A stretch of 64,000 nt of DNA from contig JAJFII010000009.1 in NCBI GenBank assembly GCA_021775095.1, forward strand, positions 1-64,000, in the 5' to 3' direction. A model generated the notes under the pieces. It was not told the DNA's origin, searched no databases, and saw nothing but the letters and a program-made list of their open reading frames with translations. The position numbers and the translations under genes are program-made. Source of the DNA: Rhodospirillales bacterium. Its GTDB lineage: Bacteria; Pseudomonadota; Alphaproteobacteria; Rhodospirillales; Casp-alpha2. This document shows positions 8,631 through 17,354 of this stretch, one piece after another. Within the stretch, counting starts at the first letter, position 1. The number at the start of each line of letters is the position of its first letter.

Positions 8631-9317
8631 ATGGGCCGGAAAAAAGCATTACAGAGCAGGCCCCTATTTTGCCTTTGCGTTGCCGGTTGGCTGGTCCAGT
8701 TGGCAACCCCTGTGCATGCCCAAACGATCAAAAATCAGGAGACAATCATCGACACGTCAAAGTCGTTTGAATGCACGGACGTAACCATCGATTATGCTAA
8801 TGATCCGTCGTTGACCCGGGAAGAACGATTGCACCTCATGGATCAGGCTCTGTATCATTCCCTTGGCCAGTTCGATGCCTGTCAGGCGCAACGAACGGGT
8901 GCCAGCGCCGAAAACGCAGCAGCGGGCAGCGCCGGTTCGGGAACGGCGGGCGGCACCGGAACGTCAGGTGACTCCGTTGCTTCCACTGACATGTCTGGTG
9001 ACGAAACCTCGGCGTCTGGCGAAGCAACCGCTGGCGAAGCGGCAATGGTTACACCCAGCGAGGCCACCTCGACGTCAGGCTGGCCAAACCCGGACGCGGG
9101 TCAACAACCTGAGGAAGCGGCTGACGGCGCTGAACTGGGTGGAAACCCAGTGGCCCATGACAATGGGAAGGTCCCGGATGATATTCCGCCAGCAGATAAT
9201 GACAGCATTTTGGAAGCCCAGATCAGACAGGCGGCGATGCGTGAAAGCGATCCGGAAACAAAAGCAAAACTGTGGGACGAATATCGTAAATATAAGGGAC
9301 TGCCTGCCGTGCAATAG
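8631..9317 (+). CDS. Secreted acidic, low-complexity protein (first gene of the motor/vWA cluster)
   Basis: About 228 residues, no family recognised. An N-terminal signal peptide (positive MGRKK, hydrophobic core, cleavage near VHA at residue 30) is followed by a short region with two cysteines. Then comes a long Gly/Ser/Ala/Thr/Glu-rich, probably disordered stretch (roughly residues 90-190) and a charged C-terminal helix (ILEAQIRQAAMRES, then KLWDEYRKYKGLP). A TTG start at 8580 is possible, but ATG 8631 gives the signal peptide a normal N-terminus. It begins an eight-gene same-strand cluster with short gaps or overlaps. Confidence 0.7.
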   Translation: MGRKKALQSRPLFCLCVAGWLVQLATPVHAQTIKNQETIIDTSKSFECTDVTIDYANDPSLTREERLHLMDQALYHSLGQFDACQAQRTGASAENAAAGSAGSGTAGGTGTSGDSVASTDMSGDETSASGEATAGEAAMVTPSEATSTSGWPNPDAGQQPEEAADGAELGGNPVAHDNGKVPDDIPPADNDSILEAQIRQAAMRESDPETKAKLWDEYRKYKGLPAVQ

Positions 9318-9345
9318 GCGGTGCCGGTTGAAAAGGAAAACCAAG

Positions 9346-10602
9346 ATGGCATTGGCAAGAGTGATTACGACGGGGATCGTATGTTGTTCGATATTCCTGT
9401 CGGGCTGTGTGACCCCTTCCGGCCCGACGTCGGGGACCGGCGTCGGACCCCAGTTGTCATCGATAATAACCAAAGCGTCGCGGATAGGTACGGACCCGAA
9501 TGATCTGTTTGATCCGGCCCGGCCGAGATTGGATGTCATTATACCGGTGTTTGACCCAGGGCTGCCGGTTGACGACAAAGCCTACGAGGAAGACGGTGTT
9601 TGGCCGGAACTGCGGCGCGCCGAGGCGATTCGATTTGCCTATAAAATGAAGTCGGCGTTGGAAGATACGGGGGTGTTTGGTGCCGTTCGGGTGACCCCCG
9701 ATCAGACGGCAACGGGCGATCTTTATGTACAGGGTGTGATCAAAGAATCGAATGGTGAAGATGTGGAATTGCAATTGCAGGTTTCCGATATTACAGGCAA
9801 TTCCTGGTTCACCGAAACTTTTGACCATGAGGTCAGCGTCTCCTTCCATAAAAATGTCCGCAATGAAGGCAAGGATGCCTACGACCCACTTTTTGAAAAA
9901 GCCACCGCCGCCCTGGTTGAGGAATTGAGCTATCAGAAAACAGCGGACCTTAGGACTGTAAAGCGCGTCGCCGAGCTGCGGTTTGGCGCAAGTTTTGTCG
10001 AACAGGCATTTGTCGAACATTTAAAAATTGAAGGCGGTACTTATGAACTGGCCAGTTTTCCGGCCGATAACGATCCCATGCTGGTTCGAACCAAAGCGAT
10101 CCGGGTCCGCGACCAGCTTTACGTCGACGGTCTGCAGGACCATTATCGATCCTTTGCCGAGAAAATGAATACCAGTTATCTGGTGTGGCAGGAGCAAAGT
10201 CGCCTGGAGATTGAAGCCAGGGATAAGGCGCAAAGCAAGGCAACCGGTGAAGCCTTGACAGGAGTTGCGCTGGTCGGCTTGGCCATCCTGGCTGTGGTCG
10301 CCGGTGGCAATACCAACAATTCAGGGAAAAGTGTAGCAGCAACAACCGCTGGTGTGGTTGGTGGCATTGCCGGAGCCAAGTTTCTCGCTGACAGTTTTCA
10401 AACACGCGAAGAATCAAAAGTTCACAAAGAGGCTCTCGACGAGCTTGGCCAGTCCATTGAAGCCGATCTGGCTCCCCAGGTCGTTGCCTATGAGCAAAAA
10501 AATGTCGAATTAACGGGAACGGCGAAAGAACAATTTGCTCAATGGCGAAGCTTTCTCAAAAAAATATATCTCGACGAGCAAACCCCTGAGGTTCAACTGT
10601 AA
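9346..10602 (+). CDS. Lipoprotein of the motor/vWA cluster
   Basis: 418 residues. The lipobox LSGC places the acylated cysteine at residue 21, so the protein should be membrane-anchored in the envelope. The N-terminal half (about 45-200) looks like a compact domain (RLDVIIPVFDPGLP, then VWPELRRAEAIRFAYKM). The second half has charged helices, then a Gly/Ala-rich hydrophobic stretch (ALTGVALVGLAILAVVAGG and GVVGGIAGAKF, about 295-350) and a further charged helix. No known family was recognised. ATG 9346 follows an AAGGA site; the open frame extends far upstream but overlaps the previous gene. Confidence 0.75.
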   Translation: MALARVITTGIVCCSIFLSGCVTPSGPTSGTGVGPQLSSIITKASRIGTDPNDLFDPARPRLDVIIPVFDPGLPVDDKAYEEDGVWPELRRAEAIRFAYKMKSALEDTGVFGAVRVTPDQTATGDLYVQGVIKESNGEDVELQLQVSDITGNSWFTETFDHEVSVSFHKNVRNEGKDAYDPLFEKATAALVEELSYQKTADLRTVKRVAELRFGASFVEQAFVEHLKIEGGTYELASFPADNDPMLVRTKAIRVRDQLYVDGLQDHYRSFAEKMNTSYLVWQEQSRLEIEARDKAQSKATGEALTGVALVGLAILAVVAGGNTNNSGKSVAATTAGVVGGIAGAKFLADSFQTREESKVHKEALDELGQSIEADLAPQVVAYEQKNVELTGTAKEQFAQWRSFLKKIYLDEQTPEVQL

Positions 10603-10617
10603 GTCAGCGGCAACCCC

Positions 10618-12426
10618 ATGCTCCAGAACAGACTCGAACACGCCAGCAAAAAGGCTTCCAGAACCCGGTTAATGATCTTCGGCGGGATGGCCCTGACGGT
10701 TATTATTGTCGGATTGGGATTTCTCAGCGCAATACTTTATCAGGATCTGTCAGCGTTGCGGCGTACGCAACAGACGGCACCGACGGCAGATCAAAACGCC
10801 GTCGACAACTGGGCAGCGGAGGACCGCAACCCACTGCCGCAGGAACCTGGGGAGCGGATCTCCTCCGCACCGGTTTTGCCGTCGACAACCGATACGCCGG
10901 TGCCCTTACCCGCTCTGCCGCTGGTCGAACCTGTCAGCAAATCTTTCGCTGAAACACCGGTGCAAGGTGCCGATACCGGCCCAATACGGCCGCGCCAACA
11001 AATGCCGGAGCCGCCGCCTCGACCCGTGACAGCGCCGAACGGTCCTGTGGAGATCGCGGCCCCGCCGACCGCTGGGACGGGCGACCACAGCCAGGTTCCC
11101 GAGGCGTCCCAAACGTTGGCGGCCGCAAGCGATAAAACGCCGGCAGAACCCTTGGCGGAGCGGCAACCGACCAGAACCATCAATGCGCCACAAACCATCG
11201 AAGATCGGGAGGCATTTAAAGATCTTTTGCTGCGTCTTGAAGGAGGCCCGGAACCGATCATTCAGTCCGAAAGTTTTAGGGATTGGCGACCGGAGAAACA
11301 GCGTGATATCGAGTTTCTCAAACAACAGGCCTATGCGGCTTTCGGCGACGGTGACTACGCTCAGGCTCGCAAACACTTAGAGCAGGCCTATGAGATGGCA
11401 TCCCAGGAAGCACGCGCCCTGGAAACCACGTTTCAAAGGGCCCTTGGCGATGCGGCGGCAGCCAAACAGGCCGACGATTACGACCGAGCCAAAACACAAA
11501 TTGACCAGGCTTTGCGATTGGCACCGGAATCCGAACAAGCGAAAAATTTGAAACCGCTGATCAACGTTATGCCGCAGGTCCAAGAATTGTTAAAGTCGGC
11601 GGGCATCAAACGCACCGAAAACAACGCTCAAGGGGAATATGATTACCTGAACGACGCCTTAAAACTTGATCCGACACGCCAGGAGGTCAGGCAAAGAGCC
11701 ACCCAATTGGCCCATACCCTCAAACAACAAAATTTTTTGTTACACATCAATGGCGGATTTTCCGAAGTAGACAAACGCCAGTTGAAAGGGGCCCAGTCCC
11801 ACCATCTGGCGGCCCAAAAACTGTTTCCGAGCCGCGCCGAAACGGCGTTGCTGGGGGCACGGGTGGGAGAACTGAAGAGTGATCTGGAAACCCAGCATTT
11901 TATTGGCAAGGCAAAAGCCGCCGCCGCCGCCGACAACTGGCAACAAAGTTTGCAGTTGTTTACCACGGCCAAAAAAATTCAGGCCAATAACCGGGCTGCT
12001 GTCGATGGTGTTGCCCTGGCGCAATCCGTGGTAAACCTGCAACGTCAAGTTACGCAACACCTGGACAGGGCGCAGCGTTTGGCGTCCGGTGGTGTTGCCA
12101 AAGCGGCCCACCAATTAGTCAAAAAAGCACAATCCCTGGCAACGGTCAGCCCGTCGCTGGATGCCCAAACATCCAGGTTGGCCGACCTGCTGGCAGCCTA
12201 CGCCGTCGACGTACCTGTTAAAGTTCTATCAGACGAAAAAACCCGCATTTCCGTCCGAGGTGTAGGCCAGGTCGGAACAACAAAGGAAAAAATCATCAAG
12301 CTTAAACCGGGAACCTACACCTTTGAAGGAAAATGTGCGGGTTTTAAGTCGAAACTGATCGCCGTTAATATCCCACCAGGGGCAACGGCCATGCGGGTGA
12401 GTATTGTCTGTGATGAACGCATTTAA
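10618..12426 (+). CDS. Membrane-anchored TPR-like repeat protein with PEGA-like C-terminus
   Basis: 602 residues. A single transmembrane helix at about residues 18-42 (LMIFGGMALTVIIVGLGFL) is followed by a proline-rich linker to about 190, and then by TPR-like helical repeats to about 530 (AYAAFGDGDYAQARKHLEQA; DDYDRAKTQIDQALRLAPES). A C-terminal beta-rich module (VPVKVLSDEKTRISVRGVG, ending LKPGTYTFEGKCAGF) resembles a PEGA domain. Topology suggests a periplasmic scaffold. It overlaps the next gene by 14 bases. No enzymatic motif is seen. Confidence 0.75.
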   Translation: MLQNRLEHASKKASRTRLMIFGGMALTVIIVGLGFLSAILYQDLSALRRTQQTAPTADQNAVDNWAAEDRNPLPQEPGERISSAPVLPSTTDTPVPLPALPLVEPVSKSFAETPVQGADTGPIRPRQQMPEPPPRPVTAPNGPVEIAAPPTAGTGDHSQVPEASQTLAAASDKTPAEPLAERQPTRTINAPQTIEDREAFKDLLLRLEGGPEPIIQSESFRDWRPEKQRDIEFLKQQAYAAFGDGDYAQARKHLEQAYEMASQEARALETTFQRALGDAAAAKQADDYDRAKTQIDQALRLAPESEQAKNLKPLINVMPQVQELLKSAGIKRTENNAQGEYDYLNDALKLDPTRQEVRQRATQLAHTLKQQNFLLHINGGFSEVDKRQLKGAQSHHLAAQKLFPSRAETALLGARVGELKSDLETQHFIGKAKAAAAADNWQQSLQLFTTAKKIQANNRAAVDGVALAQSVVNLQRQVTQHLDRAQRLASGGVAKAAHQLVKKAQSLATVSPSLDAQTSRLADLLAAYAVDVPVKVLSDEKTRISVRGVGQVGTTKEKIIKLKPGTYTFEGKCAGFKSKLIAVNIPPGATAMRVSIVCDERI

Positions 12427-14413
12427 CCAAAAACTCAGCGCCGCCCGGTCAGCCCAGCGCAAACGGTTGTTTGTGGCATTTGGCCTATTGCTTGGCGGGG
12501 CCTGTCTGGCTGCGGGTCTTTTTGCCTATCTCAATGGGACGGCTCTTTCCATTCATCCTGAAGACGCCGATCAAATCGGTCAGGTGCAGATCACAGACGG
12601 TTTAGCGGTATCCGTTTCCGACGTGGTTTATTCCCTGTCCAGGGAAACGCAAATTCGGGTCAGTGCCCAAGGTTTTAAGTCGGAGAATCGAACCCTGACC
12701 GGCGGCGACAAAGGACGGACCGTCGACATTACTTTGAGTGAACTGCCGGGTCGGCTAATTGCGGCGACCGTACCGGAGGATGCGTCGACGCGCTGGAAAC
12801 TCAATGGCCGTCGGGCCGCCGTTGGTGCCACATTGCACAGTGAACTCGCGCCGGGAACCTATACGCTGGATGCGGAAAGCCGGTATTTTGAGCCTCTGCA
12901 ACGGACTTTTGAAATGGCACGGGATGGCAACGTAAATCTGTCGTTAGCTATGCAGCCGGTGCACGGGCAATTGAAGATTAATTCTCAGCCGCAGGGTGCA
13001 CAGGTCCATGTAGACGGGCGGGATGTTGGCGCAACTCCAGCAACCGTTGCCGTTGACGGTGGGCAACACCTCGTAACCGTAGGTATGGATGCCTACCAGA
13101 CCATCGAAGACAGGCTTGAGGTAACTTACGCGGAGCGCCTGCTGGAACGCAATTATCGACTGCTGCGCCAACACTCGGAGCTGGTTTTCGACTTGAAACC
13201 GAAAGGCGGTGTTCTCCTGGTCAATGGCCGCAAGGTCGATCCGACGGACCGCCAATCGGTCCGTTCGGCTGTTGAAAATACCGTGAGCTATTCCCGCCCG
13301 GGTTACACGTCGAAATCCCGGAAACTGCTTTTGCAACCGGGCGAAACAAAAACCGTTGATTTGCATCTGGTGGAGGAATTGGGCGTGGTTACCGTTCGCT
13401 CGCAACCCGCCGCCGAAGTCTATGTTAACGAAAAACCTTATGGCAAGACGCCCTTGACCCTGAACCTGCAAACGGTTTCCCAGTCCATTTCCCTGCGCAA
13501 ACCCGGTTATCGGAGCTTGACCAAATCCGTCGTGCCGTCGCGCGAAAACCCGACAGCCTTAAGCGCGACCCTGCGCACCGAAGAACAGGCCCGAACCGCC
13601 GATGCGCCCCGGGCCTATACCAGTAAAGCCGGGATCGAGTTGCTTTTGTTCCTTGAGCCGACGGATTTTATTATGGGTGCGCCTCGGGGTGAAAAAGGCC
13701 AACGGGCCAACGAATTTCAAAGATCCGTTCGCTTCACTAAACCCTTTTACGGGGCAAAACACGAGACAACCAACGGCCAGTACCAAAAGTTCAAATCATC
13801 CCATAGCGGTACTGGTGGCGATCAGGTGCCGGTGACCTCTGTGCGCTGGTTTGACGCCGTTCAGTTTTGCAATTGGTTAAGCGAACAGGAAAACCTGGAG
13901 GCCTTTTATATCCTTGCCGGCGGCCGGGTTAGCGCCATCAACAAAAATGCCAATGGATATCGGTTATTAACGGAAGCCGAATGGGAATGGCTGGCACGGC
14001 GGGCGGCTCGACCGACCCAAACGGTATTTCCCTGGGGCAATTCTTCTACGGTTCCGGCCCGGGCCGGCAACATCGCCGACGAGTCGGCAAAGGGTCTGGT
14101 GCCGTTTTATATTCCGAAATATACCGACGGTTTTGCCGAAAGAGCACCAGTCGGGCAATTCAACAAGGAACCGTCGGGCCTCTATGATCTGGCCGGTAAT
14201 GTCAGCGAATGGGTCCACGATGTTTATTCCCTGCAGGCACCGGCACGGAACCAAGTCGCTGTCGATCCCTTGAGGCCGCTGATCGGCAGTAGCCATGTGG
14301 TTAAGGGCTCAAACTGGCGTTCAGGAACCCGTTCGACATTGCGTGCGGCGTACCGAGAGGGTTTGGTCGATCGACGCGATGATGTAGGATTTCGTATTGG
14401 CAGATATCTTTAA
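12413..14413 (+). CDS. PEGA-domain protein with C-terminal SUMF1/FGE-like domain
   Basis: About 666 residues. Transmembrane helix at about 19-41. Two clear PEGA repeats lie at about 182-245 (LKINSQPQGAQVHVDGRDVG) and 322-385 (VTVRSQPAAEVYVNEKPYG), with related beta modules between. From about 403 to the end is a formylglycine-generating-enzyme/PvdO-like fold (VPVTSVRWFDAVQFCNWLS, LLTEAEWEWLARRA, GLYDLAGNVSEWVHD, DVGFRIGRYL). The catalytic cysteine pair of true FGE is absent where expected (KGSNWRSGTRSTLRAAYREG), so a binding role is likelier than catalysis. ATG 12413 overlaps the previous gene. Confidence 0.85.
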   Translation: MNAFNQKLSAARSAQRKRLFVAFGLLLGGACLAAGLFAYLNGTALSIHPEDADQIGQVQITDGLAVSVSDVVYSLSRETQIRVSAQGFKSENRTLTGGDKGRTVDITLSELPGRLIAATVPEDASTRWKLNGRRAAVGATLHSELAPGTYTLDAESRYFEPLQRTFEMARDGNVNLSLAMQPVHGQLKINSQPQGAQVHVDGRDVGATPATVAVDGGQHLVTVGMDAYQTIEDRLEVTYAERLLERNYRLLRQHSELVFDLKPKGGVLLVNGRKVDPTDRQSVRSAVENTVSYSRPGYTSKSRKLLLQPGETKTVDLHLVEELGVVTVRSQPAAEVYVNEKPYGKTPLTLNLQTVSQSISLRKPGYRSLTKSVVPSRENPTALSATLRTEEQARTADAPRAYTSKAGIELLLFLEPTDFIMGAPRGEKGQRANEFQRSVRFTKPFYGAKHETTNGQYQKFKSSHSGTGGDQVPVTSVRWFDAVQFCNWLSEQENLEAFYILAGGRVSAINKNANGYRLLTEAEWEWLARRAARPTQTVFPWGNSSTVPARAGNIADESAKGLVPFYIPKYTDGFAERAPVGQFNKEPSGLYDLAGNVSEWVHDVYSLQAPARNQVAVDPLRPLIGSSHVVKGSNWRSGTRSTLRAAYREGLVDRRDDVGFRIGRYL

Positions 14414-14424
14414 GGAGAAACATT

Positions 14425-14568
14425 TTGAGACCCCCTAAAAGACGACATTTTGCGCTGTTTATATTGGTCAGTGTGCTCGTTGGTGGTGCTGTGGCGTCTT
14501 TTGCCATCGCCAGTTCACACAGCGCTTTTAATCTTAATTCTCCAGCCTCATTCCCCGTGGATATCTGA
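14425..14568 (+). CDS. 47-residue single-helix membrane peptide
   Basis: A strong ribosome site AAGGAG (14412-14417) lies seven bases before TTG 14425. The reading frame encodes a basic N-terminus (RPPKRRH), one hydrophobic helix (FALFILVSVLVGGAVASFAIA) and a short tail. The stop at 14566-14568 lies one base before the ATG of the channel gene, so the two are probably coupled. Short single-helix subunits are common in multi-component membrane machines; a role here is inference. It could alternatively be a leader that only drives translation of the next gene. Confidence 0.5.
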   Translation: MRPPKRRHFALFILVSVLVGGAVASFAIASSHSAFNLNSPASFPVDI

Positions 14569-14569
14569 C

Positions 14570-15337
14570 ATGACCCGCATGGTCCCAAGCCTGTTGGCGC
14601 TTGCCTTCTCCGTCATTTCGGTTCACCTGATGTACATTGGCTACATTCGCCCGGAAGCCAGTCTGGCAATCGAACTGGCGAAACAGGCCGGCCAGTCATC
14701 GCCGCGGGTCCTGTCGGTCATCTTAAAGGACTATGAGCAGGAAATATGCCTGATCCTGATGGTTTGGGGGACTTTTCTGATCCTCGAAAAATGCCTGGTC
14801 ATCATCAAAGACCGGTATCTGTTCAGTGTAGATCTGCTGGAAGGATCGGAAGCCGACGACAGCAATCTGGCATCGGTACTCAGTTCCATTGAGGATCTGC
14901 CAAACAAAGTCCGGGAAACGCCTTTGGTACGGATCCTGTTGGCCAGTTTGCGCCGCTTCCTGATCACCAAAGACGTGCAAAACACCTCGGATGCCATCGA
15001 CTCCAGTGTTGAAGCCCTGGCCATTAAACAGGAAGCCGAAAACTCGATGATCCGTTATTTGATCTGGGCCATTCCATCGATCGGCTTTATCGGTACGGTG
15101 CGCGGCATTGGTCAGGCTCTGTCACAGGCCGATCAAGCCCTGGCCGGCGACATTGCCGGGATGACGGACAGTTTGGGGGTTGCCTTCAACTCGACCCTGG
15201 TCGCCCTGTTGATCAGTATTGTCCTGATGTTTTTGTTGCACCAGTTGCAGCGTCTGCAGGATGGGTTGGTTGTTGATACCCAAACCTATTGTGAATCCTT
15301 TTTGTTAAACAGAGTCAGTAAAGTAGGCCGCGACTGA
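14570..15337 (+). CDS. MotA/TolQ/ExbB-type proton channel protein
   Basis: 255 residues with four hydrophobic helices at about 5-25, 58-78, 160-182 and 203-225. The family signature lies in the third and fourth helices: IPSIGFIGTVRGIGQAL and SLGVAFNSTLVALLIS, matching the GLLGTV and T-rich pore helices of ExbB/TolQ. The cytoplasmic part lies between helices two and three. In known systems such a protein forms a pentameric channel around two B subunits with a membrane-embedded aspartate. The next two genes encode proteins of that kind, with vWA domains. ATG 14570 was chosen because the upstream frame overlaps the small peptide gene. Confidence 0.88.
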   Translation: MTRMVPSLLALAFSVISVHLMYIGYIRPEASLAIELAKQAGQSSPRVLSVILKDYEQEICLILMVWGTFLILEKCLVIIKDRYLFSVDLLEGSEADDSNLASVLSSIEDLPNKVRETPLVRILLASLRRFLITKDVQNTSDAIDSSVEALAIKQEAENSMIRYLIWAIPSIGFIGTVRGIGQALSQADQALAGDIAGMTDSLGVAFNSTLVALLISIVLMFLLHQLQRLQDGLVVDTQTYCESFLLNRVSKVGRD

Positions 15338-16401
15338 GACGAAAACGCAAAACCGAAGGATTTAACCTGGCCTTTCTCGACATCATGTCCTGCGGGTTAG
15401 GAGCGGTGATTCTTGTCTTTATGCTGGTCAAATATAATGTCGACGTGGCTGGGGCCCGGGAAAACCAGTCCCTGGAACTGGAATTGACCCAACTGGCGGC
15501 CGAGGAGGCGGCGCTTAGCCGTCAGGTGGCAGCGGCAAGGGCGGATCAGTCCACAGTTGAAACGGATGTGCGCAGTGCCTCCGCGCAACTGGCACAAATC
15601 GAAATACAACTTGCCGACAAACGTCGACAGTCTGCCCGGCAACAAAAGGATCTAACGGCCCTTAAAAAAACCATCGAAAAAACCGAAATTGCCAAAACCT
15701 CCGATCTGGTCGACGATGCCAACGCTGGCGAACAGGATTATGTGGTCGGCTTGAAAGTCGAAGGGGACAAAATTATTGTCCTGCTCGATAGCAGTGCGTC
15801 AATGACAGACGAGGTGCTAATAGACGTGATCCGCCGGAAAAACCGGCCGGACCAGGAAAAACAAGCGGGGCCGAAATGGCAAAGAAGCAAACGCATTGTT
15901 CAATGGGTACTGGCCCGGTTGCCCCACGACAGTCTGTTTCAGGTGATTGCCTATGATGAAAAAGCCCGTTCCCTGGGTGCGAGCGGATGGTTAAAAGCCA
16001 ACAATCCCCAGGCCCAGAACGGCGTTCGTGCCGCCCTGTCTGGCCTTGTCCCGAGCGGTGCAACCAACCTGCAGGCCGGTTTAAAAGCCGTGACCCGGGC
16101 CGCACCTACCAACGTTTACCTGGTTACCGATGGTTTGCCGACCAAAGGGGATTCCAATTTTAAGAGCCTTAACCCCTTCGCCAGCTGCAGTTCCTTGCGG
16201 GGCGCCTCAAATACCATTTCCGGGGCCTGCCGATTGAAGTTGTTTCAGCATTCGGTGGATAAGGACGGCCCCACCCGCGATGTGCCGGTCAACGTCATAT
16301 TGCTCCCCATCGAAGGCGACCCCCAGGCCTCAAGCGCCTATTGGTCATGGACCTCGGCGACCGGTGGGTTGCTGATCAGCCCGGCTGCGAGTTGGCCATG
16401 A
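15334..16401 (+). CDS. vWA-domain protein with ExbD/MotB-like N-terminal helix (B subunit 1)
   Basis: The first in-frame ATG is 15385, but the frame is open upstream to 15322. Translation from CTG 15334 gives RRKRKTEGFNLAFLDIMSCG, closely matching the start of the next protein (FSLSFLDVISCGFGA). The conserved F-L-D at the beginning of the helix resembles the ion-carrying Asp of ExbD/TolR (D16 here) and would be lost with ATG 15385. After the helix come a coiled coil (about 45-125) and a vWA domain from about 145. The metal-site motif is complete: DSSAS (about 152), Thr in GATNL, and TDG. It overlaps the stop of the channel gene. The CTG start is inferred. Confidence 0.75.
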   Translation: MRRKRKTEGFNLAFLDIMSCGLGAVILVFMLVKYNVDVAGARENQSLELELTQLAAEEAALSRQVAAARADQSTVETDVRSASAQLAQIEIQLADKRRQSARQQKDLTALKKTIEKTEIAKTSDLVDDANAGEQDYVVGLKVEGDKIIVLLDSSASMTDEVLIDVIRRKNRPDQEKQAGPKWQRSKRIVQWVLARLPHDSLFQVIAYDEKARSLGASGWLKANNPQAQNGVRAALSGLVPSGATNLQAGLKAVTRAAPTNVYLVTDGLPTKGDSNFKSLNPFASCSSLRGASNTISGACRLKLFQHSVDKDGPTRDVPVNVILLPIEGDPQASSAYWSWTSATGGLLISPAASWP

Positions 16402-17354
16402 AATACCAGCGGCGTGATTTCGAAATATTCAGTTTGTCGTTTCTTGATGTGATTTCCTGCGGTTTTGGGGCCATTGTCCTGTTGGTCCTGATCTCCAAAA
16501 CCCTACCTGATCCGGCCAGCGAAGATGCGCAACAGGAGGTTTCCCCAACCCAGGAACTGCTGGGTCAGGTCCTGAAAACGGAAACCCGGGTCGTCATCCT
16601 AAACCGTCAATTACAAGATGCTCTCGGCGGGCAAAAATCGAAATTGACCCTGTTGCAAACCCTCAGACGCCAGGCCCGTTCGTCGGGTGCGGCATTAGCG
16701 GAAATGGATAACGATATTGCCCGGCAGGCCGACGACCTGTCCGGCCTGGCGCTTGTTCAATCGACCTTGAAACGCGCCTCCATATCCCAGGCGACGGCGA
16801 CAAAACGAGATGACGAAGTGGGCGGGATTCCCGTTGATAGTGATTATGTGGTGTTCATCATTGATACTTCGGGCAGTATGCAGGAAATCTGGAACCGGGT
16901 TGTCAGGGAAGTCGAAAACATCATCACCGTTCACCCTAAAATCACCGGGTTTCAAATTCTCAACGACAACGGTGCCCACATTCTGTCGGCTTATACGGGT
17001 AAATGGATCCCCGATACGCCGGGCCGCCGGCGCAGTGTCATCAAGTTGCTCAGATCCTGGAAAAGTGTTTCCAACAGCAGCCCGGTAGAGGGCCTGGAAG
17101 TTGCCTTAAAACGTTACGCCAGATCCGACAAAAAAGTATCCATCTATATTTTTGGTGATGAATACAGTGGTTCGTCTTACGATCCGGTGATCAATACCCT
17201 GGTTAATCTCAATACCAACCGGATCACTGGTAAGAAACTGGCCAAGGTTCACGCCGTTGGTTTTATTTCCAACTATTCCAACGGCCGTTTTGCGACCCTC
17301 ATGCGCGAAGTGGCTCGACGGAACGACGGCACGTTCATGGCCCTTCCCAGATAA
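16398..17354 (+). CDS. vWA-domain protein with ExbD/MotB-like N-terminal helix (B subunit 2)
   Basis: 318 residues, paralogous to the preceding gene, whose stop it overlaps (ATGA). Seen: short basic N-terminus, then SLSFLDVISCGFGAIVLLVL with Asp17 at the start of the single transmembrane helix, as in ExbD/TolR/MotB; a coiled-coil linker (about 45-135); and a vWA domain from about 150 with DTSGS (about 156). The Thr position of the metal site appears to be Ser (NSSPVEG) and the Asp is in FGDEY, so metal binding may be altered. Two different B-type subunits beside one channel protein suggest a heterodimer inside a pentameric channel (inference). Confidence 0.82.
   Translation: MKYQRRDFEIFSLSFLDVISCGFGAIVLLVLISKTLPDPASEDAQQEVSPTQELLGQVLKTETRVVILNRQLQDALGGQKSKLTLLQTLRRQARSSGAALAEMDNDIARQADDLSGLALVQSTLKRASISQATATKRDDEVGGIPVDSDYVVFIIDTSGSMQEIWNRVVREVENIITVHPKITGFQILNDNGAHILSAYTGKWIPDTPGRRRSVIKLLRSWKSVSNSSPVEGLEVALKRYARSDKKVSIYIFGDEYSGSSYDPVINTLVNLNTNRITGKKLAKVHAVGFISNYSNGRFATLMREVARRNDGTFMALPR

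Follow-up and report, generated by a model that had tools for sequence, protein, structure and literature searches.

An eight-gene envelope locus with a TolQ-like channel, paired vWA proteins and a system-specific FPVDI tail peptide

Energised trans-envelope machines are few, and each serves a major cell function such as uptake, division, swimming or gliding. Does a cluster of eight genes in a Rhodospirillales bacterium encode a further one, and which parts would belong to it? The genes, which we label g1 to g8, were confirmed by open reading frame (ORF) analysis at positions 8631-17354 of a 64,000-nucleotide window (contig JAJFII010000009.1 of assembly GCA_021775095.1, positions 1 to 64,000). 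All lie on the plus strand; an earlier interpretation made from the DNA letters (the sequence-only reading) had placed them on one strand when it proposed an ion-driven motor here. The eight genes form a unit. The core of the motor has already been predicted elsewhere; the delimitation of the full unit and its tail peptide is new and testable. Three additions concern the fold of g2, a Cys-free SUMF1-like domain in g4 and a system-specific tail on g5. Together the sequences suggest a further energised trans-envelope machine, spread yet sporadic, that can here be delimited gene by gene.

The genes are closely packed. From g1 to g8 the successive spacings are gaps of 28 and 15 bases, an overlap of 14, gaps of 11 and 1, and two overlaps of 4. 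The sequence-only reading had given gaps or overlaps of 1-23 bases; the overlaps fit (that between g3 and g4 becomes 23 if the TTG start of g4 at 12404 is used), and only the g1-g2 gap falls outside. Consensus scans of the region gave little information: the promoter scan returned 14 promoter-like sites versus 5.6 in shuffles, several of them on the minus strand or intragenic, and the terminator scan found no terminator-like site 3' of g8.

Conservation was assessed in 100 loci with profiles for seven genes (g1, g2, g3, g4, g6, g7 and g8), g5 being traced by a script that recognises its tail. Eighty loci were gathered by a search with the channel gene g6, so that co-occurrence with g6 is built into this set. 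Twenty further regions came from one class sample, the class of genome G182 (evidently Gammaproteobacteria), in which the g7 profile had 27 strong matches; 19 of these and one weak match, G440, were taken. The loci are interrelated, many are cut by contig ends, many come from metagenome-assembled genomes, and L043 and L189 very likely represent one genome. All seven profiled genes are present in 68 of the 100 loci, and the order g1 g2 g3 g4 g6 g7 g8 on one strand is kept in 66 of these 68, the conservation that had been proposed as a check on the sequence-only reading. The two exceptions are L202, with g6 behind g8, and L055 (7729-16962), whose g4-g5-g6 and g1-g2-g3-g7-g8 blocks have opposite strands and meet tail to tail, through rearrangement or misassembly. 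At least one profiled gene is missing from the remaining 32 loci, and contig ends explain all of these except L074, L197, L201, L203 and L207; in L203 g6 again lies behind g8, and g2 has no match. The sequence-only reading had named vWA genes without the channel gene as evidence against itself, and this is not what we found: g6 is present in 18 of the 20 regions chosen by g7, the contig of L192 ending first and g6 not being found in L201.

For each profiled gene, proteins of suitable length were hand-picked for spread and aligned together with the window protein. The rows taken numbered 41 of 56 available for g1, 49 of 58 for g2, 42 of 62 for g3, 44 of 70 for g4, 55 of 76 for g6, 44 of 72 for g7 and 58 of 71 for g8, and invariance below refers to these alignments.

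The channel gene g6 (14570-15337) encodes 255 residues that match PF01618 (MotA_ExbB; E = 8.6e-14, 51.8 bits, gathering cut-off 22.9), which confirms the MotA/TolQ/ExbB signature seen in the sequence-only reading. T176 and T209 are invariant in 56 rows and have Thr counterparts in the alignment with E. coli ExbB and the host TolQ; we presume that such residues line the pore. A pore-lining Thr ring is also given in a published account of TolQ-like motors (PMC12204202). Hydropathy peaks of g6 start at about residues 8, 61 and 204, and the alignment adds a helix near 162-180, which suggests one additional helix at the N-terminus of g6, with a conserved KDYEQEIC stretch behind it. The host genome holds one copy of the system and four further PF01618 genes. 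We read these as three motA-like genes and the tolQ of a separate tolQRAB locus, so that g6 would be an additional motor.

Next to the channel gene lie g7 (15334-16401) and g8 (16398-17354), each with one hydrophobic helix by hydropathy. The single F-L-D helix, coiled coil and vWA domain described for both in the sequence-only reading are supported by a structural model for g8 and by sequence for g7. The AlphaFold2 (AF2) model of g8 (predicted local distance difference test score, pLDDT, 84.5) has a transmembrane helix at 15-33, a long helix at 50-128 and a vWA domain at 146-318; the Pfam match of this domain is below cut-off, and its fold was recognised as vWA by Foldseek at 1.2e-7 and by VIA at Z 17.6. 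The g7 protein matches Pfam VWA_2 above cut-off (7.9e-8), and the two proteins are homologous (hhalign probability 99.7, 245 aligned columns). Counted from the apparent CTG start, the F-L-D Asp of g7 is residue 16 (codon 15379-15381; invariant in 45 rows); that of g8 is residue 17 (codon 16446-16448; invariant in 59 rows). In a larger automatic alignment, with 73 g7 and 72 g8 rows, the Asp is kept at 95% or more. MAFFT sets this Asp on the Asp of TolR/ExbD. Residues of the type found in the metal-ion-dependent adhesion site (MIDAS) are invariant in both vWA domains, D152 S154 S156 T244 D266 in 45/45 rows of g7 and D156 S158 S160 S227 D254 in 59/59 rows of g8. We take the motif to be DxSxS, T/S and D, with S227 of g8 assigned by position. 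These invariant sites suggest an acidic ligand.

The start of g7 is unusual. An apparent CTG at 15334-15337 overlaps the stop of g6 (CTGA), and no ATG, GTG or TTG keeps the Asp helix. Besides the window, a CTG-on-stop start was found in 10 of 56 compared loci (L011, L012, L014, L015, L016, L020, L029, L042, L075 and L077), and 4 more of the 56 are without ATG, GTG or TTG for g7, there without the stop overlap. Annotation requiring the usual start codons would truncate g7. A single open frame of more than 1700 codons in L074 (10666-15963) contains the matches of both g7 and g8 and may encode a fusion or a much enlarged vWA protein.

Motors of this kind were described in section 8 of PMC12204202 (2025), which presents AlphaFold3 (AF3)-predicted TolQ-like pentamers with paired TPH-vWA proteins and no TolR or ExbD. 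According to that section, the Asp of the TPH-vWA helix sits in the Thr ring, and the family is predominantly found in Proteobacteria and Verrucomicrobia. Because PMC12204202 predicts vWA-TolQ motors, the central claim of the sequence-only reading has been published independently. Its ion-driven core is probably right, given the PF01618 match, the invariant Asp and the published prediction, and it is not new. Our locus resembles this family in its TolQ-like gene without TolR/ExbD, its two different vWA genes beside the channel gene and its conserved Asp helix. It differs in its other genes, since in section 8 no gene for PEGA, SUMF1, a lipoprotein or a tail peptide is named for that family; the main text of the paper does not mention PEGA, SUMF1 or formylglycine, and its Fig. 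4c may show some of the neighbours. The distinction is thus drawn from the text of that paper, whose seed locus is from Idiomarina. A literature search, thin on preprints and subscription papers, found no account of the eight-gene set or of FPVDI, PMC12204202 being the only relevant source.

What marks this unit is the small gene g5 (14425-14568), which proved its most distinctive part and went unnamed in the title of the sequence-only reading. It encodes 47 residues from a TTG start after AAGGAG and ends in SFPVDI, the C-terminal tail being NLNSPASFPVDI-stop. The rest of the protein resembles a signal peptide or an anchor, and the mature peptide may comprise about 18 residues if the protein is cleaved at AIA. 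A tail of the form P-x-D-[I/V/L/M] was found by script at the g5 place in 95 of 100 loci: FPVDI in 80, FPIDI and FPADI in 5 each, and FPSDI, YPVDI, MPSDI, IPSDM and FPTDI in one each. Among the five that the script missed, L055 and L195 do have the tail, L077 and L192 are cut, and L207 is without it. For comparison, such an ending occurs in 1 of 554 flanking proteins. In the L083 group and in most regions chosen by g7, the same tail is carried by longer, different, exported-looking proteins, which indicates that it is mainly the tail that is conserved.

The DNA pattern of FPVDI-stop has one match in the host genome, the g5 tail itself (14551-14568), and occurs with a true stop once each in 11 of 12 other system genomes, the exception being G182 with YPVDI. 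In a sample of 299 genomes, which has five genomes in common with the set of 12, true-stop FPVDI was found in 11 of 12 system genomes versus 1 of 287 others (Fisher p 4e-18). The sole match outside system genomes belongs to an open stretch of 15 residues that lies close to the edge of its contig, and five further pattern matches among the 299 genomes end in TGG, not in stops. Each true FPVDI-stop of the system genomes adjoins g4 and/or g6, with varying codons. FPVDI as a general sorting or export tag was rejected because the exact tail occurs once per genome in the host and in 11 of the 12 others. The FPVDI-stop pattern is a sharp signature by which the system is easily found, and it offers experimenters a five-residue handle.

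The other genes supply envelope parts. The lipoprotein g2 (9346-10602; 418 residues) has an invariant lipobox Cys21, and the following residue is never Asp in 50/50 rows. A residue other than Asp after the lipobox Cys points to the outer membrane (the +2 rule), which would place g2 there. In its AF2 model (pLDDT 79, hairpin tip poorly modelled) a domain at about residues 47-203 precedes a long helical hairpin, within which hydropathy marks a hydrophobic Gly-rich stretch at 303-321. VIA matched the domain to FlgT (Z 10.6, residues 49-203), PelC (10.4), CT253 (10.2), CsgG (9.7), XCC0632 (9.7), the TolB N-domain (8.3), PqiC (7.9) and LptE (7.0); ranks 1-9 span Z 10.6-9.7 over 113-133 residues with a root mean square deviation of 2.7-3.7. 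Foldseek returned nothing at E<=0.001, with LptE and TolB nearest, and a profile search against solved structures nothing at E<=1; the absence of a family from these fold lists does not exclude it. Judged from the model, we count the domain as sharing the fold of FlgT, PelC, CsgG and the TolB N-domain, from which g2 differs by its long helical hairpin. PelC and CsgG form an outer-membrane ring or pore.

The g3 protein (10618-12426) has an N-terminal hydrophobic anchor, a TPR-like region and a conserved C-terminal domain by hydropathy and a 43-row alignment. An N-terminal hydrophobic anchor is also present in g4 (12413-14413), followed by PEGA domains (Pfam 3.1e-34, best stretch 185-250) and an FGE/SUMF1-like domain at 414-662 (FGE-sulfatase 2.7e-33). 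Among the components that the sequence-only reading had named, PEGA and SUMF1 are thus above the Pfam cut-off and the lipoprotein has its invariant Cys, but the TPR matches of g3 remain below cut-off. The g4 profile matches SUMF1 (6.5e-24) and PorK (8e-20) in the PDB; its match to the NCBIfam GldK model (TIGR03525; 2.3e-20) reaches 73.3 bits against a cut-off of 350, short of an assignment to GldK/PorK. A formylglycine-generating enzyme (FGE) needs a catalytic Cys pair. Columns 631-665 of g4, aligned to the SUMF1 Cys, hold a Cys in 0/45 rows, so that g4 lacks this feature of the enzyme, and we take the FGE-like domain for a non-catalytic binding or scaffold part. The exported g1 protein (8631-9317; 228 residues) has a low-complexity middle and a conserved C-terminus LW-EYRKYKG, with D184, Q197, A201, A202, L214, W215, E217, Y218 and Y221 invariant in 42 rows, and matches no Pfam or NCBIfam family above cut-off. 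Likewise, no Pfam family was found above cut-off for g2 and g5, and none of the eight proteins exceeds a curated NCBIfam cut-off. PADLOC matches of the eight are weak, and the weak NCBIfam and PADLOC matches include GldK for g4 and ZorA, ExbB and TolQ for g6.

How does this set of parts compare with known machines? With the 5:2 motors ExbBD, TolQR and MotAB it shares a PF01618 protein, an Asp in the single helix of the B subunit and the aligned Thr residues. Unlike in these motors, a vWA domain replaces the ExbD/TolR or OmpA domain, and g6 has its probable extra N-terminal helix. None of the eight proteins has a Pfam match to ExbD/TolR (PF02472), TonB/TolA or OmpA/Pal at E<=0.1, in line with the absence of an OmpA-like or TonB-like partner noted in the sequence-only reading; the only PF02472 match of the host is its TolR, elsewhere in the genome. 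The GldKLMN proteins of the type IX secretion system (T9SS) and of gliding also join a motor to an FGE-fold partner, PorK/GldK, to which g4 is similar. Here, by contrast, the A subunit is of the MotA/ExbB family and g4 carries PEGA domains behind its N-terminal anchor, and Pfam and NCBIfam scans of the eight gave no match to the GldL, GldM or GldN models. Zorya (ZorAB) likewise has a MotA-type channel and differs in that g6 here has envelope partners and no ZorB, ZorC or ZorD match; ZorA at its curated score together with ZorB was not found.

The system is sporadic and spread over several classes. Titles of the 80 loci gathered by the channel gene include Alpha-, Beta-, Gamma- and Zetaproteobacteria, desulfobacteria and a Nitrospina bin, among others; cultured environmental hosts are represented in this set, including Magnetovibrio blakemorei MV-1, Mariprofundus sp. 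EBB-1 and Methylophaga strains. Including the host, the system was found in 5 of 61 genomes of a search of relatives and as strong matches in 12 of 299 genomes of a phylum sample, which gave two further weak matches in the coil region. In the class sample, the g7 profile had strong matches (E<1e-50) in 27 of 321 genomes and matches at E<=0.001 in 46. A quick tree of g6, with long branches flagged, mostly tracks taxonomic class (10 changes, against a minimum of 7 and a mean of 26 after shuffling). Among the 14 largest flank clusters listed for the 80 loci, none represents a widely conserved neighbour; the top two occur in 17 and 11 loci at scattered positions, and each of the others in 4-6 loci that in part are closely related bins. 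Plasmid searches found no relative of g7 and only partial relatives of g6 in three records.

Related A/B pairs were seen in other settings. A cousin locus (L207, 3516-6816, minus strand) holds a g6-like channel and one vWA B subunit with a REINIFSMSALDLF helix, no tail peptide, a PP2C phosphatase, an FHA protein and a protein that by eye combines a protease with FHA. On Rhizobium plasmid pRlBT01d (L126, 7695-14676), a PF01618 channel is followed by a B-like protein with a NIEIFSMSVLDLF helix and no vWA match, and further on by a 1610-residue open frame. On an Anabaena plasmid (L125, 7539-10115), a MotA/TolQ/ExbB protein and two short B-like proteins are encoded with a type III-B CRISPR module on one side and a viperin gene on the other. 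In the MAFFT alignment of the helix Asp region, the B proteins of the cousin and of Rhizobium look intermediate, and one of the two Anabaena proteins has a Ser at the Asp position.

Sequence or prediction shows the gene unit, the folds, the tail specific to the system, and the conservation of the Asp, Thr and MIDAS-type residues. From them we consider it probable, with some reserve, that the eight genes encode a trans-envelope motor complex of the 5:2 type driven by the proton motive force, with g6 as ring, the vWA proteins as heads, the g5 tail, and g2-g4 as envelope parts. The g6 protein would form an ion-conducting, probably pentameric ring, into whose pore g7 and g8, probably as a heterodimer, would insert their Asp-bearing helices. 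Long coiled coils (some 80 residues as modelled for g8) would carry their vWA heads in the periplasm, and ion flow would turn or flex these heads. The intact MIDAS-type sites could take hold of an acidic ligand and let it go again, depending on metal; this ligand would most likely be the near-invariant Asp-Ile tail of g5. Anchored in the inner membrane, g4 (PEGA and inactive FGE) and g3 (TPR) would build a periplasmic scaffold, and the outer-membrane lipoprotein g2 would be the end that receives the force. Our best guess is that the machine acts mechanically on peptidoglycan or the outer membrane. The MIDAS as tail receptor is a guess, and a more specific version, in which two MIDAS vWA 'hands' cyclically grip the FPVDI tail and so pull a PelC/CsgG-like ring of outer-membrane lipoproteins, is a tentative proposal that we think rather unlikely to hold in full. 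We know of no envelope motor with a metal-gated grip on a peptide tail; if true, a two-handed grip of this kind on a dedicated peptide would be a new kind of trans-envelope machine.

Several observations weigh against this motor or its details. Against solved structures, the g6 profile found nothing at E<=0.01, that of g8 no vWA structure and three weak matches in the coil region, and that of g7 19 weak matches, nearly all to coil. Compared by hhalign with 24 ExbD/TolR rows (the host TolR twice), the helices reached a probability of 0.4% for g8 and 2.4% for g7, and control transmembrane helices of g4 (0.7%) and g3 (0.3%) hardly differed from them. Because hhalign is not significant, any kinship with the ExbD/TolR helix derives only from the MAFFT register and the motif. 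The g2 fold also matches TolB, PqiC and LptE, which are not known to form rings. The position of g6 differs in L202 and L203, where it lies behind g8, but the tail gene is still next to g4 there; this suits g4 as the partner of the tail. The vWA protein of the cousin L207 has DxSxS yet no tail accompanies it.

The chief alternative for the tail receptor is accordingly the FGE-like groove of g4: the motor would be the same, but the FPVDI tail would be held by the inactive groove, and g5 would link scaffold and motor. FGE enzymes bind a linear, Pro-containing peptide, and g4 keeps this domain without catalytic Cys in 45/45 rows, beside g5 even where g6 has moved. In most loci, however, g5 adjoins g6 as well, and the invariance of both MIDAS-type sites in the aligned rows suggests an acidic ligand; we regard the groove as a tentative candidate, doubtful to the same degree as the two-handed grip. 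By analogy with T9SS GldKLMN, the unit might instead be a protein or polysaccharide export device with g2 as outer-membrane ring or pore and the motor driving export or surface movement. FlgT, PelC and CsgG as closest folds of g2, its hydrophobic stretch and the PorK and GldK matches of g4 are in keeping with this, but the GldK score far below cut-off, the lack of a widely conserved gene in the listed flank clusters and a tail found once per genome, hence no general export tag, make it unlikely. We think it similarly unlikely that the unit tethers or constricts the outer membrane as a functional relative of Tol-Pal, with force put on the outer-membrane lipoprotein via periplasmic partners. The kinship of the g6 motor, the TolB-N-like fold of g2 (Z 8.3) and the PEGA and TPR-like partners would suit it; a tolQRAB locus is, by our reading, present in the same genome, and the sporadic distribution (5/61 and 12/299, host included) is unlike that of a housekeeping function.

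Two further possibilities carry far less weight. A Zorya-type stress or phage sensor, in place of a motor that performs work, would fit the sporadic distribution, the FHA and PP2C genes of the cousin, the Anabaena A/B pair in its type III-B CRISPR and viperin island, and the ZorA models that PADLOC matched weakly to g6 (best 5.3e-4). Yet ZorA scores 15.2 bits against an NCBIfam cut-off of 500, the eight proteins match no ZorB, ZorC or ZorD model at E<=0.1, the flanks hold no widely conserved gene, and many parts are predicted to be extracytoplasmic, so that the defence reading is weak and we hold it to be very improbable. We give as little credence to a channel of g6 only, with the vWA proteins bound to its side outside the pore in the manner of TonB/TolA. 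PMC12204202 does describe a side-binding vWA family with an SHLS motif, but this motif is lacking in the g7 and g8 helices, whose Asp is invariant, and no other pore partner was recognised in the unit.

Some loci carry additional genes. In 20 of the 100 an extra gene lies near g6/g7 (e.g. L083, L191, L202 and L205), of 444-464 codons in the four that were read and actin/Hsp70-like by eye; of three scanned, one has an FHA domain (PF00498, 1.9e-12) and two have no Pfam match. Perhaps these loci form a second subtype under control by phosphorylation. Five closely similar loci (L083-L087) have two further lipoprotein-like genes 3' of g8.

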